A stretch of 64,000 bases of DNA from Sphingobacterium paucimobilis HER1398. GTDB taxonomy: Bacteria > Bacteroidota > Bacteroidia > Sphingobacteriales > Sphingobacteriaceae. Below are positions 1-5,568 of this stretch, piece by piece. The notes below the pieces were generated by a model that saw only the letters and a program-made list of their open reading frames with translations, was not told the origin of the DNA and did no database searches. Positions within the stretch are counted from its first letter, which is position 1, and every line of letters begins with the position of its first letter. The stretch is from the NCBI RefSeq assembly GCF_000416985.1, contig NZ_ATDL01000014.1:186001-250000 (forward strand), given 5' to 3'. The translations under genes were made by a program, and so were the position numbers.

Positions 1-315
1 TTTGTCACGAGAGGTGAAAAAACCTGTGGATTCTACAACTATATCAATTTGCAAATCGGACCAAGGTAGCTCCACAGGATTTTTTTTGTTGAGTATCGTT
101 ATTTTCTTCCCGTTTACATTCAGAAAATCTTCGCCATGGGTTATTTCTCCTGGAAAGGGGCCATGTACTGAATCGTATTTCAATAGATGGGCTAGCGTAG
201 CGGGGTCTGTCAGATCATTGATTGCTACAATGTTGATGTTAGGAATCTGACGAACCAGTAGGTTGCGTAAGGTATGTCTACCTATGCGACCAAAGCCATT
301 TATTGCTATTTTCAT
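1..315 (-). CDS. gap: Glyceraldehyde-3-phosphate dehydrogenase, N-terminal part (cut by window start)
   Basis: Read on the minus strand from the ATG at 315, the first 105 codons encode the N-terminal NAD-binding Rossmann region of GAPDH, the glycolytic enzyme that converts glyceraldehyde-3-phosphate to 1,3-bisphosphoglycerate in the cytoplasm. The start reads MKIAINGFGRIGR, the hallmark nucleotide-binding motif. It is followed by a VAINDLTDP-type segment and, near the cut end, by VVESTGFFTSRD, which matches the stretch leading to the catalytic domain. The catalytic cysteine would lie outside the window. A hairpin repeat (367-427) sits about 50 bases upstream of the start and may lie in its leader. 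Identity is certain from these motifs; the paralogue type cannot be told from this fragment. Confidence 0.95.
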   Translation of the reverse strand, partial: MKIAINGFGRIGRHTLRNLLVRQIPNINIVAINDLTDPATLAHLLKYDSVHGPFPGEITHGEDFLNVNGKKITILNKKNPVELPWSDLQIDIVVESTGFFTSRDK

Positions 316-366
316 ATGTAAATTATATGTTTTTCAAAGGCCATCAATTTGTCCCAATTTGTCGAG

Positions 367-427
367 ATGGAATATCCAAGCTGTTTTTATTGGCGCTTGT
401 GCATCCAATGTTAGATGGATATTTCAT
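367..427 (-). repeat. Hairpin repeat, copy 1 (also a possible 27-codon ORF)
   Basis: Two 12-base arms (367-378 and 416-427) form an inverted repeat, ATGAAATATCCA against TGGATATTCCAT on the minus strand, with one non-Watson-Crick pair and a 37-base loop. The same arms recur at 5177-5243 (loop also 37) and, with changed stem bases, at 5300-5344. It lies upstream of gap. On the minus strand the left arm could start a small ORF (427 to 344, 27 codons) beginning MKYP with LDIP further on. Copy 2 has the same two tetrapeptides, but both are encoded by the stem, so peptide similarity may only reflect the hairpin. Confidence 0.6.
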
Positions 428-456
428 GATGGATATAACTTGTTGTGTCGAGCTTA

Positions 457-1101
457 TTATTTTGTGTAGGCTGCTATTATTTCATTGATGTTTTTGTCAC
501 CATCCCAATGTGTCTGTAGTTTATTGTCTTTCCCATAGACATAGTTAGCAGGGAATTGTCCTGGGACATGGAATTTTTGTATGAATTCCTGATTTCTGTC
601 GTACAGCACCTCAACGTTGGGTTTGCCAACTAATTCTTTGGCAAATGTTTCTAAGAAAGAAGCCATCAATGCTGGGTCGTTCATGGAAACAAAGTATATA
701 TTGACACCTTTAATCCGGTCGTAGTTTTTTCCTAATGCTGCTGCCTCTGTTCTGCAGTGGGAACATCCCGGGTCAAAAAGAATGAAAACTGTTTTTTTTC
801 CTGTAGGGATATCGCTATTCGTAAATGAAATACCTGATTTTACTTTATAAAAAGTAAAGGCCGGAATCTGTGCTATAGGATCGCCTTGAGCAAGATTGCT
901 CATGTTGCTTTCGGGAGTTTGAGGGGCTGCACTATTGGTATTATGTTCATGCGCACTATGATCGTGACCGCTGTGATCGTGACCTTGATGGGCGTCCGCT
1001 TCTGTTTTGGTTTTTTCCGTATTACTTGGGGTATTAGAGCAACTGGATAACCCCAACGATACGCTTACAATAAGATAAGCTGGTATAATCATTTTCTTCA
1101 T
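457..1101 (-). CDS. Lipoprotein with His-rich segment and redoxin/TlpA-like domain
   Basis: A 214-residue protein with a lipoprotein signal (hydrophobic stretch, then LSSCS with the lipidated Cys near residue 21). A low-complexity linker carries the His-rich segment HQGHDHSGHDHSAHEH at about residues 38-53, a likely divalent-metal binding stretch. The C-terminal 140 residues resemble the thioredoxin-like AhpC/TlpA fold: KTVFILFDPGCSHCRTEAAAL supplies a CxxC at about residue 113, followed by the strand IYFVSMND and a conserved-looking proline region (FHVPGQFPANYVYG). It is probably periplasm-facing and involved in thiol redox chemistry or metal handling. The gene stands alone, convergent in position with the secDF terminator. 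Function is inferred from motifs only; a copper- or zinc-related role is possible but unproven. Confidence 0.75.
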   Translation of the reverse strand: MKKMIIPAYLIVSVSLGLSSCSNTPSNTEKTKTEADAHQGHDHSGHDHSAHEHNTNSAAPQTPESNMSNLAQGDPIAQIPAFTFYKVKSGISFTNSDIPTGKKTVFILFDPGCSHCRTEAAALGKNYDRIKGVNIYFVSMNDPALMASFLETFAKELVGKPNVEVLYDRNQEFIQKFHVPGQFPANYVYGKDNKLQTHWDGDKNINEIIAAYTK

Positions 1102-1210
1102 ACGTTTGTTTTTTGTCCTTACAAACTTAGATAAAATGCTTTGTATTTAGCGAATGCCTATAGGAAAAAACTGTGAATCTGACGTTGTTATGTTGAATCT
1201 AATAGACATA

Positions 1211-1241
1211 AAAAAAGGCTATCATTCGATAGCCTTTTTTT
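1211..1241 (-). terminator. Intrinsic terminator of secDF (bidirectional-looking)
   Basis: AAAGGCTATC and GATAGCCTTT form a perfect stem around ATTC, flanked by A and T runs on either side. It follows the secDF stop codon by about 20 bases on the minus strand. Confidence 0.9.
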
Positions 1242-1259
1242 ATAATATCTGATGACAGA

Positions 1260-4256
1260 TTAAGGTGTCACTACTTTTACTTTTTCCTCAGCTGGCTTAG
1301 CAATTGCTTTGTCTTTACCTAAGTCATATACTGTAGGAGCCGCTAGTACAATCGAAGAGTATGTACCTACGACAATACCGATCAGGATCGCAAAAGAGAA
1401 ACCTCTGATAACCTCTCCACCGAATACGAACAATACTGCTAGTACGAAGATAATTGTTAATGAAGTAATAATTGTACGGCTCAATGTGGTATTGATTGCT
1501 TGATTTACAACATCTCCAAAGTATTTATTCATACCTTTTGACTTGCTTACATCTTCACGTATACGGTCAAATACAACTACTGTATCATTGACCGAATAGG
1601 CCAGTACAGTAAGGAATGCCGCTACAAAGTGCTGGTCAATATCCAATGAGAATGGAACAATGCCATCTAATATAGAGAATAGACCTAATAGAATAATACC
1701 ATCATGTATCGTTGCGACAGCTGCACCCACTGAATATTGCCATTTGTGGAAACGCACTAAGATATAAGCTGCAATAATCAATACAGAAAGTATACTAGAC
1801 CAGGCTGCTCTTCCTTTAATATCTGATGCAATAGATGGCCCTACCTTTTGAGAAGAAAGGATTTCGTATTTATTTCCTTGCTCTTTGGATAGACCTTCAT
1901 TTAATTTTGCTAATACTTCCGCATCAGCTTCATCCGAAGTTTCTGTGATATGATAAGTTGTTGTTACACGAACCTGGTTCTCACTACCAAATGTTTTTAC
2001 CTCTGTGGTGGACTGGAAAGTTTCATCTAAGTTTTTACGAATAGTTTCTAGATTAACAGCTTTGTCATAACGAACAGTATAGGTACGTCCTCCTTGGAAA
2101 TCTACACCTAAAGTGAATCCTTTGGTGAAAACGAAACCTAAAGAGATTGCTACAGCGATCAGTGATACGATATAGAATTTTTTACGGTTTTTGATAAATT
2201 GATAGTTTGCGTTTTGAAGTGTTTTCTCCGACCAAGGGAATGAAACTGATATTTTCATATCTCTGTCTAACATAAACTCGAAAATCAAACGCGATATAAA
2301 AATAGACGTAAATAGCGATGTGATAATACCAATCATCAATGTTGTCGCAAAACCTAAGATAGGTCCTGAACCAAAGAAGAATAATACAACACCAACTAGA
2401 CCTGTCGTAATCTGGGAGTCTAAGATGGATGGTAATGCATGTTTATAACCATCGGCTATAGCTTGACGAACACTTTTGCCTAGGCGAAGTTCTTCACGTA
2501 TACGTTCGTATATCAGTACGTTGGCATCCACAGCGGTACCCATTGTCAATACGATACCAGCAATACCAGGTAGTGTCAATACTGCGTTTAATGATGCTAA
2601 AATACCTAATAAGAAGAATACGTTGAATAATACCGCAATATTAGCTGCCCAACCTGCTCTATTGTAATAGACAACCATGAATATCATTACGACTACAATA
2701 CCAATTATCGCAGAGTTAACTCCTGAGTCAATTGCTGCCTGTCCTAATGAAGGACCTACAATAGCTTCTTCTACGATTTTAGCTGTTGTAGGAAGGCGAC
2801 CTGCCTTCAATACGTTAGCTAAATCTTTCGTATCTTCAATAGTGAAGTTTCCTGAGATTGAAGAACTACCTCCTGGGATTTCATTGCTTACGGTAGGGGC
2901 TGAATATACCACGCCATCTAAGACGATAGCGATTGATGCTTTAGTCTGCGCTGCTTTAGCAGTGATACGTCTCCATTCTTTAGCACCATAAGAATTCATC
3001 TGCATGGATACTTCAGGAGCATTGGTTTGTGGATTGAAAGCATCTCTAGCGTCTGTAATAACTTCACCTGTCAATACTGCTCCGTGTTCTCCAGGAATCG
3101 GTTTGATCGCATATAGGGACAGGAAATTAGGGCTACGGTGCTCCGGTTTTACAGCCCACATCAATTTTAAGTTTGAAGGGATCTGTGATTTAATCTCTGG
3201 TCTTGCTAAGTAAGCATTTACTTTAGCTGTATCTTTTAGGTTTGCTATACCTACTTGGGCGCCAGGTGCTAACTGTTGTTGACCATTCTCAGCTTGATAT
3301 ATGGATGGCATCAATACACTGAACAGTGGGTTTTCGTTTGCTAGATTGGCAGCTATGGTACTGGAATCTTGTTTGTCTCCTTTATTCGTTCCAAGGTTCG
3401 CAAGTAGATTGTCCTCTTTTTTGGTGGTATCTACTGCTGTTGAATCTGTTGTAGAAACTGTTTTTGGTGTTTCGTTAGTTTTCAGCGAGCTTGCTAGAGA
3501 ACGATTTATGTTCTCTAATAAAGGATAGATCTGCATGTTGTCATGCGTTTCATAGAACTCTAATTTGGCTGACCCTTGTAAGAGTTTGCGCACGCGACTT
3601 TCATCATTGACACCAGGTAGTTCGATAAGGATACGGTTTGTTCCTTGTTGAATCTGAATGTTTGGAGATGCAACACCAAATTTATCAATACGTGTACGTA
3701 ATACTTTGTATGAATTTTGGATCGCATTGTCTGCTTCTTTTTGAAGGAAACTTTTTAAATCTGAATCTGAACTCGTTGCTTTGATGAAAGCGGAGTTATC
3801 TTTTGTCGCAAAAAATGAAGCTAAACTAGCTGATGCACCACTAGCTTTATAATCTTCGATGAAAAGATCGACAACAGATTTGTTTGACGATTTACTTTTT
3901 TGAATTGCTGAGTTTAGAGATGCGTTAAACTTTTCGTCCTTTGGATTGTTAGCTAAGTTTTTAATTAACTCATCTAAGGAAATCTCCATAGTGACGTTCA
4001 TCCCACCTTTAAGATCTAGCCCTAGAGCAAGTTCATAAGATTTACATTCTCTGTACGTGTACTTGGCAAAGCCCAAGTTATAAACCGTTTCACCCGCAAT
4101 GGAATCGAGGTATGCCTTTTCCTTTGCGATATCGCCTCCTGCATATGCCTCAGCTTCACGTTCCACTTTTCTTGTTACAAAAGTGAATGATAAAGAATAG
4201 AGACAAGCTAATGCCACTATTATTACCAAAAATTTAATCAGCCCTTTACTCTGCAT
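1260..4256 (-). CDS. secDF: Protein translocase fusion SecDF
   Basis: A 998-residue membrane protein that fuses SecD and SecF, the RND-type partners of SecYEG that use proton motive force to pull secreted proteins across the inner membrane. The SecD half starts with one N-terminal membrane segment, then LGLDLKGGMNV near residue 80, a long periplasmic domain with an unusual low-complexity Thr/Ser/Lys/Asp insert near residues 265-310, and a membrane block with MGTAVDANVLIYERI. The SecF half begins around residue 660 with its own LGVDFQGGRTYTV motif and ends with SVNDTVVVFDRIRED and a final membrane block. Single-chain SecDF of about 1000 residues is usual in Bacteroidota. It has its own promoter (4428-4461) and terminator (1211-1241), so it is probably monocistronic. 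Confidence 0.97.
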   Translation of the reverse strand: MQSKGLIKFLVIIVALACLYSLSFTFVTRKVEREAEAYAGGDIAKEKAYLDSIAGETVYNLGFAKYTYRECKSYELALGLDLKGGMNVTMEISLDELIKNLANNPKDEKFNASLNSAIQKSKSSNKSVVDLFIEDYKASGASASLASFFATKDNSAFIKATSSDSDLKSFLQKEADNAIQNSYKVLRTRIDKFGVASPNIQIQQGTNRILIELPGVNDESRVRKLLQGSAKLEFYETHDNMQIYPLLENINRSLASSLKTNETPKTVSTTDSTAVDTTKKEDNLLANLGTNKGDKQDSSTIAANLANENPLFSVLMPSIYQAENGQQQLAPGAQVGIANLKDTAKVNAYLARPEIKSQIPSNLKLMWAVKPEHRSPNFLSLYAIKPIPGEHGAVLTGEVITDARDAFNPQTNAPEVSMQMNSYGAKEWRRITAKAAQTKASIAIVLDGVVYSAPTVSNEIPGGSSSISGNFTIEDTKDLANVLKAGRLPTTAKIVEEAIVGPSLGQAAIDSGVNSAIIGIVVVMIFMVVYYNRAGWAANIAVLFNVFFLLGILASLNAVLTLPGIAGIVLTMGTAVDANVLIYERIREELRLGKSVRQAIADGYKHALPSILDSQITTGLVGVVLFFFGSGPILGFATTLMIGIITSLFTSIFISRLIFEFMLDRDMKISVSFPWSEKTLQNANYQFIKNRKKFYIVSLIAVAISLGFVFTKGFTLGVDFQGGRTYTVRYDKAVNLETIRKNLDETFQSTTEVKTFGSENQVRVTTTYHITETSDEADAEVLAKLNEGLSKEQGNKYEILSSQKVGPSIASDIKGRAAWSSILSVLIIAAYILVRFHKWQYSVGAAVATIHDGIILLGLFSILDGIVPFSLDIDQHFVAAFLTVLAYSVNDTVVVFDRIREDVSKSKGMNKYFGDVVNQAINTTLSRTIITSLTIIFVLAVLFVFGGEVIRGFSFAILIGIVVGTYSSIVLAAPTVYDLGKDKAIAKPAEEKVKVVTP

Positions 4257-4427
4257 TTTCTGTATTCGTCTATTAGTTTGATATAGTTTATGTTTTTTAA
4301 TTGCTTTAAATCTCGTGAAAATATGTCAAAGTATCGTTAATCATTGGGCTAAAAAAGGACTGTGAAGTCTTTTTAGAGGCTTGGATTATACTTAACACTT
4401 TAACAAAATATATTTTACCAAGAATCG

Positions 4428-4461
4428 CAAAGGTATAAAAATTTTGTATAATGAAAACAAA
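4428..4461 (-). promoter_or_regulatory. Bacteroidota-type promoter of secDF
   Basis: On the minus strand TTTG (4461-4458) and TACCTTTG (4435-4428) are 22 bases apart and match the TTTG / TAnnTTTG consensus of the primary sigma factor of this phylum. The predicted start site is about 165 bases before the secDF start codon. Confidence 0.55.
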
Positions 4462-4542
4462 ATATATAGATAACTATTGAAAAGTTTTTGTTATGGGAAT
4501 ATGAACAAAATATTAGCAAAAGTGTCTAATGAGGAGACACCT

Positions 4543-4579
4543 ATGGCGCAATCGGACTTTTTGTTTCCGATTGCGCTAT
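4543..4579. terminator. Long inverted repeat, possible terminator without T-run
   Basis: GCGCAATCGGA (4546-4556) pairs perfectly with TCCGATTGCGC (4566-4576) around a 9-base loop, and outer bases extend the stem to about 14 pairs with one G-T. No T-run follows on either strand. It lies about 70 bases after the end of the minus-strand barrel gene, so it may end or protect that transcript. Confidence 0.45.
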
Positions 4580-4649
4580 GAAAAGGCTTTTTGTTTCAGC
4601 TATGCGTGTTTATTGGCTATAGCATAGGATTGAAGTGGTTGTGTGTGTG

Positions 4650-5150
4650 TTATTTTAACGTGAATTTGAATCCCAGGGTGAATCTTGACGGCTCGAAGCT
4701 CGAATTGTGGGTTAAGTTCCACCAAGGTTTCCAGTCAAAATGAAAGGCCAACGGAGCGGAAGGTATTTTGAATTCGAGACCGACGGCGGGACGAATAGCG
4801 ACATGAGTGTGATTATCACGGTGTTTGTCGTCAAACCAGATACTGTTGTTGTTAAGAAAGGTCAACTGTGGACCTATGCCAACGTACCAACTGAGTCCGC
4901 GAGCGCCACGGATCGGCTGATTGTAGGAGTAATCTACTCCTATTAATGTAACATTGTCACCGAATAGAACCTGTGCATTCCCCGCGTTTTGATTATCAAA
5001 AAAATGTTTGACCTGTGGGCCGCCTAAGGTGGGGCCATCACCTACATCTATGCCTACCCCTAGGGCAGTTCTATAGGACTGTGCTTTTACAATAGTCGAG
5101 GAGCCAAGAAACAAAGCTATCGCAAGTACAGATAGAGCCGATTTTTTCAT
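4650..5150 (-). CDS. Small outer-membrane beta-barrel-like protein
   Basis: A 166-residue protein with a clear signal peptide (MKKSALSVLAIALFLGSSTIVKA, cleavage before QSY). The mature part alternates short hydrophobic strands and turns (YRTALGVGIDVG, VTLIGVDYSYNQ, LSWYVGIGPQLTFL, VAIRPAVGLEFKI) and ends with RFTLGFKFTLK, an aromatic-hydrophobic final strand typical of barrel proteins inserted by BamA. The family is common in Bacteroidota as small uncharacterised porin-like proteins; about eight strands would fit. No specific function can be assigned. Two hairpin repeats lie upstream (5177-5243 and 5300-5344), and the start codon region shares 17 bases with the arm of the first one. Confidence 0.7.
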   Translation of the reverse strand: MKKSALSVLAIALFLGSSTIVKAQSYRTALGVGIDVGDGPTLGGPQVKHFFDNQNAGNAQVLFGDNVTLIGVDYSYNQPIRGARGLSWYVGIGPQLTFLNNNSIWFDDKHRDNHTHVAIRPAVGLEFKIPSAPLAFHFDWKPWWNLTHNSSFEPSRFTLGFKFTLK

Positions 5151-5176
5151 ATGTATATAATTTGATTTTCAGTTGC

Positions 5177-5243
5177 CATATGGAATATCCAAAATATATT
5201 CATTCGTGTTTGTGAAGTTGCTGCTACATGGATATTTCATATG
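5177..5243 (-). repeat. Hairpin repeat, copy 2 (also a possible 23-codon ORF)
   Basis: Arms CATATGGAATATCCA (5177-5191) and TGGATATTTCATATG (5229-5243) pair over 15 bases with one mismatch around a 37-base loop. Stem sequence and loop length match copy 1 at 367-427, but the loop sequence differs. On the minus strand an ORF from 5240 to 5169 would encode 23 residues starting MKYP and containing LDIP. Confidence 0.65.
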
Positions 5244-5259
5244 TATATAATTATTTCGT

Positions 5260-5279
5260 GATCCGCCAGTTGGCGGATC
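5260..5279. repeat. Short palindromic element
   Basis: GATCCGCC and GGCGGATC flank AGTT, giving a perfect 8-pair stem. A T-rich stretch follows on the plus strand, so a weak terminator is possible; a REP-like dispersed palindrome is the alternative. It lies between hairpin copies 2 and 3. Confidence 0.5.
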
Positions 5280-5299
5280 GGTTTGTTTTTTATTGTCTT

Positions 5300-5344
5300 A
5301 TGGAGTACTCAAGAGGAATGCTTCGCTAAACATGAGTATTTCAT
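5300..5344 (-). repeat. Hairpin repeat, copy 3 (shorter loop, changed stem)
   Basis: Arms ATGGAGTACTCA (5300-5311) and TGAGTATTTCAT (5333-5344) form the same kind of stem as copies 1 and 2 with a 21-base loop. Bases differ on both arms in a way that keeps pairing (TATCC/GGATA becoming TACTC/GAGTA). The minus-strand reading frame starting MKY stops after 11 codons because the second arm supplies TGA. Confidence 0.55.
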
Positions 5345-5568
5345 CTGAACTTGTATGTATTAGTATAATTAAATAAAAGGTGATGAAGCTTTACTGTGGT
5401 CGCATACTCTGTATATTGAAGATAGCGGCAAAGGGTGCTTCGGTCTTTTATAGTTGTGCTTCGTAAAGCTAAGCAAAGAACTTGCCAAAATGTTGCGATT
5501 GGCTTTAATTGTTGGTTAAAAAAATGAATATAATCTGAGCGTCATTAAATGGGGGCTGTTATTTTTAT

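Follow-up and report, generated by a model that had tools for sequence, protein, structure and literature searches.

The 64,000-nucleotide stretch of the Sphingobacterium paucimobilis HER1398 genome analysed here (contig C13, positions 186001–250000, in a host genome of 5.13 Mb; called the window below) carries three copies of a hairpin repeat. These copies probably belong to a family of non-autonomous mobile elements of very small size whose insertion sites are ATGAA motifs, in the overwhelming majority translation starts. Precise insertion, duplication of ATGAA, stacking of copies and conserved pairing were each established by comparison of sequences.

The elements are dispersed and mostly 80–140 bp in size. 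In the orientation of the downstream gene they read ATGAA-ATATCC-loop-GGATAT-TCCATATG-tail-CATATGAA, with a tail resembling GCCATTAAAAGACAAATTATTTA; as delimited in the alignments, the element extends beyond the hairpin and includes this tail. An inserted copy has the layout leader-ATGAA-[X6..loop..X6'-TCCAT-NNN'-tail-NNN]-ATGAA-gene, in which the right ATGAA is the gene's own start and the left ATGAA is the copied motif that ends the old leader. As this motif recurs at the end of every copy, stacking is possible. The loop measures 15 to 90 nt among 92 distinct copies, most often 24, 32–38 or 63–90 nt. A 25-base tail pattern, allowing up to three mismatches, gave 49 matches in the host genome and none for the reversed control, and some of these matches precede genes at which no hairpin could be recognised. 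The two element ends showed no inverted repeat with each other when the alignment was inspected by eye.

In the window, copy 1 occupies 311–428 on the minus strand, with hairpin arms at 367–378 and 416–427 (plus-strand coordinates) and a loop of 37 nt. It has a divergent tail and ends on the start codon of gapA (ATGAA 311–315), whose 5′ end (positions 1–315, minus strand; ATG at 313–315; translation MKIAINGFGR...) is the recipient. The covariance model R1, described below, matches copy 1 at 333–428 with 69.5 bits; the gapA start lies 17 nt further on, owing to the changed tail. Copy 2 (5146–5241, minus strand; R1 match 102.7 bits) is of the complete 96-bp type, consisting of the left ATGAA at 5236–5240, the hairpin (arms 5180–5191 and 5229–5240, loop 37 nt, outer pairing to about 5177–5243), the tail and the right ATGAA at 5146–5150. 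In gene orientation its 5′ arm, ATGAAATATCCA (5229–5240), includes the left ATGAA, and its 3′ arm is TGGATATTCCAT (5180–5191), delimited by sequence and covariation. The segment TCCATATG at 5177–5184 pairs, with one A.C, with the terminal CATATGAA at 5146–5153, a pairing for which end-to-end covariation is seen across copies. The right ATGAA provides the start codon and the next two bases of a 166-aa outer-membrane-protein-like open reading frame (ORF; 4650–5150, minus strand; taken from the ORF list and named by eye), which has the same start in the element-free relatives L147 and L174. Copy 3 (5277–5345, minus strand; R1 match 33.0 bits; arms 5300–5311 and 5333–5344, loop 21 nt) is an older element of the 83-bp type, stacked upstream of copy 2 before the same recipient gene, and its stem bases are changed in pairs. 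Coordinates, arm sequences, loop lengths and the paired changes of copy 3 thus agree with the original prediction. The earlier statement that each copy lies upstream of a minus-strand gene also held, and it can be sharpened: copies 1 and 2 end exactly on start codons, and copies 3 and 2 are stacked before one gene.

Mobility was assessed by comparison with relatives, several of which are close: the SecD-SecF protein is 97–98% identical in Sphingobacterium tabacisoli, S. yanglingense, S. faecale and one metagenome-assembled genome. At eight loci, relatives lack the element or have fewer stacked copies, the leader running straight into the gene, so that filled and empty sites with precise junctions, the general mark of a mobile element, are found among relatives. 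On this comparative evidence the element is mobile. At gapA it is present in L146, L150, L152 and L173 and absent from L147 and L174, and S. nematocida and strain xlx-96 have no element at either gapA or the outer-membrane-protein gene. Six loci of more distant relatives (L148, L149, L151, L153, L154 and L158) are also element-free at gapA, a wide absence that speaks for gain rather than loss. At the outer-membrane locus, S. faecale and the metagenome-assembled genome have copy 3 only, L152 and L173 have copy 3 without copy 2 before the same gene, and S. tabacisoli and the host have both. In S. tabacisoli the second copy stands between ..ACACATATGAAA and CATATGAAA, matching the arrangement in the window, while S. 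yanglingense has a GC-rich palindrome at that position instead.

For 12 further host loci the element was removed in silico, the flanks were joined with one ATGAA, and the predicted empty sites were searched for in 93 genomes of the genus. At six of the 12, relatives matched across the junction and aligned with the element missing, as in the empty site AAAACTTACTAAC-ATGAAATATAACC compared to the filled AAAACTTACTAGA-ATGAA..element..-ATGAAATATAACC. The search scored three candidate places per genome and the six loci were the ones aligned, so that lack of a contiguous match does not denote a filled site. ATGAA/TTCAT is found at both ends in the junction alignments. At L094 and L078 host and relatives have different bases beside the junction, and the gap was set off ATGAA in the alignment, leaving a less sharp junction. 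Beyond the six aligned loci, junction-spanning matches at 69–70% identity were obtained for L084 in G046 and G022.

The position of the copies relative to genes was then counted. Leaving out four matches on contig C20 that repeat contig C7, the 45 host matches form 40 arrays, and in 39 of these the end coincides with a start codon; when restricted to arrays having a match at E≤0.01 the count is 33 of 34, six of the 40 arrays depending on matches with E>0.01. In 33 of the 40, the ORF that begins at the terminal ATG has 60 codons or more; the frame of array L128 is lipoprotein-like with 58 aa, and that of L145 is GG-leader-like with 45 aa. Three arrays (L082/L095, L087 and L132) reach the start via another small palindrome, and L092 is the sole host array without a gene at its end. 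As background, ATGAA sites of the window fall at ORF starts (18), elsewhere between ORFs (39) and within ORFs (129 sense and 62 antisense), so that 18 of 57 non-coding sites lie on ORF starts, as counted with simple ORF calls of at least 80 aa and with the copied ATGAA of the window's own elements included. Insertions that were merely excluded from coding sequence would therefore be expected on starts in about one third of cases. Tested binomially against this background, 39 of 40 has a probability of 8e-19 and 33 of 34 one of 7e-16. In relatives, 51 of 60 copies lead at their terminal ATG into an ORF of 60 aa or more; the 60 copies are top-ranked loci rather than a random sample and include near-identical pairs. 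In other genera (24 matches on 20 stretches of eight genomes), 15 of the 24 open an ORF of at least 180 aa.

Two observations on small frames belong here. The 45-aa ORF of L145 (G000:C1, near 47986), with its double-glycine leader, appears bacteriocin-like by eye and begins exactly where a weak match ends. L110 (57 aa) and L128 (58 aa) are similar lipoprotein-like ORFs in different genomes, with the element at both start codons.

Copy number and distribution were determined with the exact arm pair and with a covariance model, R1, built from 34 copies. The host genome contains the arm pair nine times, and 28 of 60 genus genomes have it, the reversed control pattern giving no match in either search; the search for further copies that had been proposed for the repeat thus succeeded, and the hairpin is not a chance occurrence. 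R1 gave 49 host matches at E≤1, 41 of these at E≤0.01, and matched 44 of the 60 genus genomes as well as 48 of 201 family genomes, in 13 of 25 genera. All three window copies belong to the training set, so the independent support lies in the number of further copies. Counts per genus genome run from 0 to 51, a spread that suggests mobility. Copy 2 had no match in plasmid and phage collections, and 15 viral contigs carry the arm pattern, none of which matches R1 at E≤0.1. Separately, G067, an incomplete 1.5-Mb genome of another genus, has at least 20 matches, the densest load among the matches listed, with stems and end triplets unlike those of Sphingobacterium. In the host genome (reported contamination 3.56%), the four C20 matches have equal-score twins on C7; the two contigs seem to share duplicated stretches, either an assembly duplication or a real repeat.

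Conservation of the stem was examined by its covariation. In a first set of 98 matches (92 distinct), 38 doubly changed stem cells were counted, compared to 6.7 ± 2.3 in shuffled alignments and 3–10 with slid structures. In a wider set of 78 distinct copies from several genera the count was 83, compared to 22.4 ± 3.4 shuffled and 1–7 slid. As the alignments had been fitted to the model, a model-free test was carried out for ATGAA-X6 ... X6'-TCCAT with perfect complementarity, from which viral loci and L175–L190 were left out and in which R1 training copies were included. It yielded 82 distinct hairpins with 8 inner stems, and seven permuted anchors gave 0, 2, 0, 1, 0, 0 and 0 hairpins. The loci had been gathered with the ATATCC form, so an excess of that stem (58 of 82) is expected; this applies less to the other seven stems. 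These results show that the stem X6/X6' covaries. The pairing-preserving variation that the original prediction called for was thus found, and the earlier view of a repeat conserved in structure is borne out.

The pairing extends to the motif itself and to the far end of the element. At stem position 5 an A.C mismatch is found in 86 of 92 rows. Read on the opposite strand it becomes a conserved G.T, via which TTCAT pairs with ATGGA; the perfect form ATGAA..TTCAT was found in only 6 hairpins. In some copies the triplet that follows TCCAT also covaries with the triplet preceding the terminal ATGAA. This end pairing was tested on 90 of 121 distinct copies, the others being without a recognisable arm or ATGAA. 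An end triplet other than ATG was present in 24 of the 90, and in 11 of these 24 it is exactly complementary to the far end, compared to a mean of 0.74 and a maximum of 5 in 5000 shuffles. Five co-changes in three genomes are represented: CTG/CAG, TAG/CTA and TTG/CAA (G067), AAG/CTT (G038) and ATC/GAT (G160). In 8 of the 11 (L120, L330, L333, L334, L335, L336, L338 and L346) the left flank is unlike the far-end triplet, which identifies the element's own far end, not the left flank, as the pairing partner; in the remaining three the two are identical. Owing to the NNN'/NNN covariation, joined ends, in a circle or in tandem, could form one longer hairpin with ATGAA inside the stem. Such a hairpin across the joined ends suggests that the element may be recognised as folded single-stranded DNA.

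Several observations weigh against the reading of these copies as start-codon-seeking mobile elements. Nine of the 60 copies from relatives open no ORF of at least 60 aa at the terminal ATG: three of them (L101, L241 and L246) continue into another copy, L110 has a frame of 57 aa, L236 is followed after 27 nt by an ORF of 471 aa, and four (L102, L103, L116 and L118) lie off any start. Together with L092, these last four are the clear exceptions in the genus. Among the 24 copies of other genera, four are off a start, four run into a further copy and one is cut by a contig end. Placement on start codons is therefore a strong preference and not absolute, and may arise from targeting, selection or both. 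The number of stem pairs changed on both sides was five in the first set, which 44 of 500 shuffles reached and which is not striking, and seven in the wider set, reached by 3 of 500, a modest result. As to the end triplets, 13 of the 24 unusual ones are not exactly complementary to the far end, and a single genome, G067, contributes nine of the 11 exact ones, in three triplet types, the other two being from G038 and G160. Single-strand folding gave z-scores between −1.61 and 0.24 in 9 of 11 cases, at most about 1.6 standard deviations below shuffles; L084 and L332 gave −4.07 and −3.41, and the best L084 fold is not the conserved stem. Some insertions, for example the one at gapA, are common to five genomes, so a kept leader function is possible there. 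No mobilising enzyme was found; the occurrence of Y1 transposase, of integron integrase and of reverse transcriptase does not follow that of the element. Nor was an autonomous copy seen, though no search was aimed at one.

The sharing of the gapA insertion by five genomes would also fit a regulatory leader, either riboswitch-like or a protein-bound RNA hairpin, of a regulon spread by ordinary evolution. The copies are structured, stand in the 5′ leader and have the same orientation before genes; however, sites are empty in close relatives, copies stack, and no Rfam family matches in the window at gathering score. The 38 downstream host ORFs listed, moreover, look unrelated and without evident common function as judged by eye from their N-termini; they include FabG-like, threonine-synthase-like and aminotransferase-like proteins, GAPDH and many with signal peptides. 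We regard this explanation as very unlikely. Of the dispersed regulatory RNA element originally proposed, the dispersed, structure-conserved repeat stands, and a regulon finds no support in gene function. No strong claim is made for RNA regulation by the element; effects on the expression of single genes are possible.

A second early proposal, a family of small peptides MKYP...LDIP, was rejected, and its probability is next to negligible. Copies 1 and 2 do contain the minus-strand MKYP frames, 27 and 23 codons long, and 23 codons recur in many copies; however, loops vary from 15 to 90 nt, neither length nor frame of the ORF is kept, and the terminal residues are set by the stem. Among the 60 copies from relatives, a short ORF of 4–39 codons is found in 57, and two have no ATG. 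Duplication of ATGAA, the target, accounts for the shared 'MK'. The short frame of one relative (L238) is open into the gene, giving 466 codons compared to 436. Two further candidates were discarded by eye: a second short frame over the tail (ATG GCC ATT AAA ... TGA, overlapping the start codon) is disrupted in a number of copies, and a promoter motif is not kept among subtypes.

With the copies read as mobile elements, the effect on the recipient gene follows from the layout. As the aligned sites show, the gene's start codon is preserved and its new leader comes from the element, while a short ORF opens at the copied ATG with which the old leader now ends. In the mechanism we propose, the mobile form would be a folded single-stranded DNA, whose TCCAT arm (ATGGA on the other strand) may read the five-base target by base pairing, as the guides of IS200/IS605 elements or attC sites do, and an enzyme acting in trans would cut and join. 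It is possible, at somewhat short of an even chance, that the elements form a new class of mobile DNA targeting start codons, in which the element's own arm pairs with both the ATGAA target and the far end and the enzyme lies outside the known single-strand systems.

A somewhat unlikely alternative is a non-autonomous element of IS200/IS605 type, resembling palindrome-associated transposable elements (PATEs) or the repetitive extragenic palindromes (REPs) mobilised by REP-associated tyrosine transposases (RAYTs), with a Y1 HUH transposase acting on single-stranded DNA at a TTCAT target. The short fixed target kept at both ends, the hairpin adjoining it, the guide-like arm that pairs with the motif and the lack of an end-to-end inverted repeat in the alignments all resemble IS200/IS605 elements and PATEs; in IS608, a left guide within the element pairs with the TTAC target (PMC5934647). 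Here, in contrast, one hairpin stem encloses the target motif and spans the joined ends instead of lying inside each end, insertions are concentrated on start codons, and no Y1 transposase is associated. PF01797 (Y1_Tnp) had no match in the host or in G041, G053, G054, G017, G012, G022 and G046, seven genus genomes with at least 20 copies each; it is found in 13 of 60 genus genomes, and elements occur in 38 of the 47 genomes without Y1 and in 6 of the 13 with it. The same absence bears on the suggestion of a REP-like repeat, which holds for a small mobile hairpin and is not supported for the REP/RAYT class. REPs lie between genes, whereas the present elements are fused to start codons. What is shared is the form of small dispersed palindromes, described in one report as possibly non-autonomous mobile elements, alongside a TnpA-REP (PMC8266576).

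The strand-asymmetric mismatch noted above also recalls the attC sites of integrons. An attC site has a conserved outer stem, a variable terminal loop, a crossover inside the stem and strand asymmetry, and occurs in tandem arrays. In sequence our elements resemble this in their stem, loop range, junction position, strand asymmetry and stacking, and their stem would be longest with the ends joined; circular hairpin cassettes, folded as single strands and inserted at ATGAA by a tyrosine recombinase, would account for this. We consider this unlikely: the integron integrase model TIGR02249 gave no match over cut-off in any of 60 genomes (sub-cut-off matches only, likewise in all 14 control genomes), the cassette holds no gene, and the targets are scattered start codons, no search having been made for an attI-like platform. 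Guide-type pairing and covariation are seen in the sequences, alongside the non-complementary triplets, and membership of either IS200/IS605 or attC is not supported. An RNA-templated insertion, in which reverse transcription is primed by TTCAT on an RNA ending in AUGAA, would explain both the ATGAA microhomology at the two ends and the sense orientation. Reverse transcriptase (PF00078) matches were found in the host and in G012; of the 10 element-rich genomes searched, the remaining 8 had none, G041 with its 52 copies among them, and this route appears highly improbable.

Bacterial miniature inverted-repeat transposable elements (MITEs) are non-autonomous, about 100 bp long and polymorphic between relatives, and duplicate a short target. 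In these respects the present elements are alike; they differ in having a single hairpin at one end and no end-to-end terminal inverted repeat seen (by eye; no autonomous partner was searched for). The nearest reported case we found is that of TAACTGA direct repeats closely preceding start codons in Beggiatoaceae and in some Bacteroidetes, which likewise are multi-copy, lie within a few bases of the starts of unrelated genes, form arrays and are patchily distributed (PMC4679880). Unlike our elements they are heptamer direct repeats of unrelated sequence, and the abstract reports no hairpin or evident transfer mechanism (PMC4679880). A literature search, most subscription journals being outside its scope, turned up no publication describing an element of this kind in Sphingobacteriaceae.

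Short GC-rich palindromes (GATCCGCCA..TGGCGGATC, CCGAGCTTGCGAGCTC and CCCGAC..GTCGGG) are nested in or adjoin the element tail. They were seen in the window, at L087, L095, L132, L292, L294 and L295, and often before TAATTATATACATATGAA. The window example, GATCCGCCA..TGGCGGATC at 5260–5279 (no strand assigned), lies between copies 3 and 2 as a second small insert; a similar palindrome is present in L150, and L146, L152 and L173 have none at the same place. The palindromes vary among relatives at the outer-membrane locus and are possibly further families of the same kind.

Mobile elements usually avoid or break genes. By landing on start codons, in genes that are unrelated and whose protein stays intact, the elements described here would rewrite leaders, add a hairpin and turn the old start into that of a short upstream ORF, and would thus be a ready source of translation variation. 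They raise the testable question of how an insertion at the DNA level comes to sit on start codons, and the pairing rules give concrete predictions for the choice of target and for identifying the mobilising enzyme. If a start-codon-targeting class is indeed at work in these bacteria, the gene would stay readable through a fresh leader, while the element regenerates its own target and can stack.

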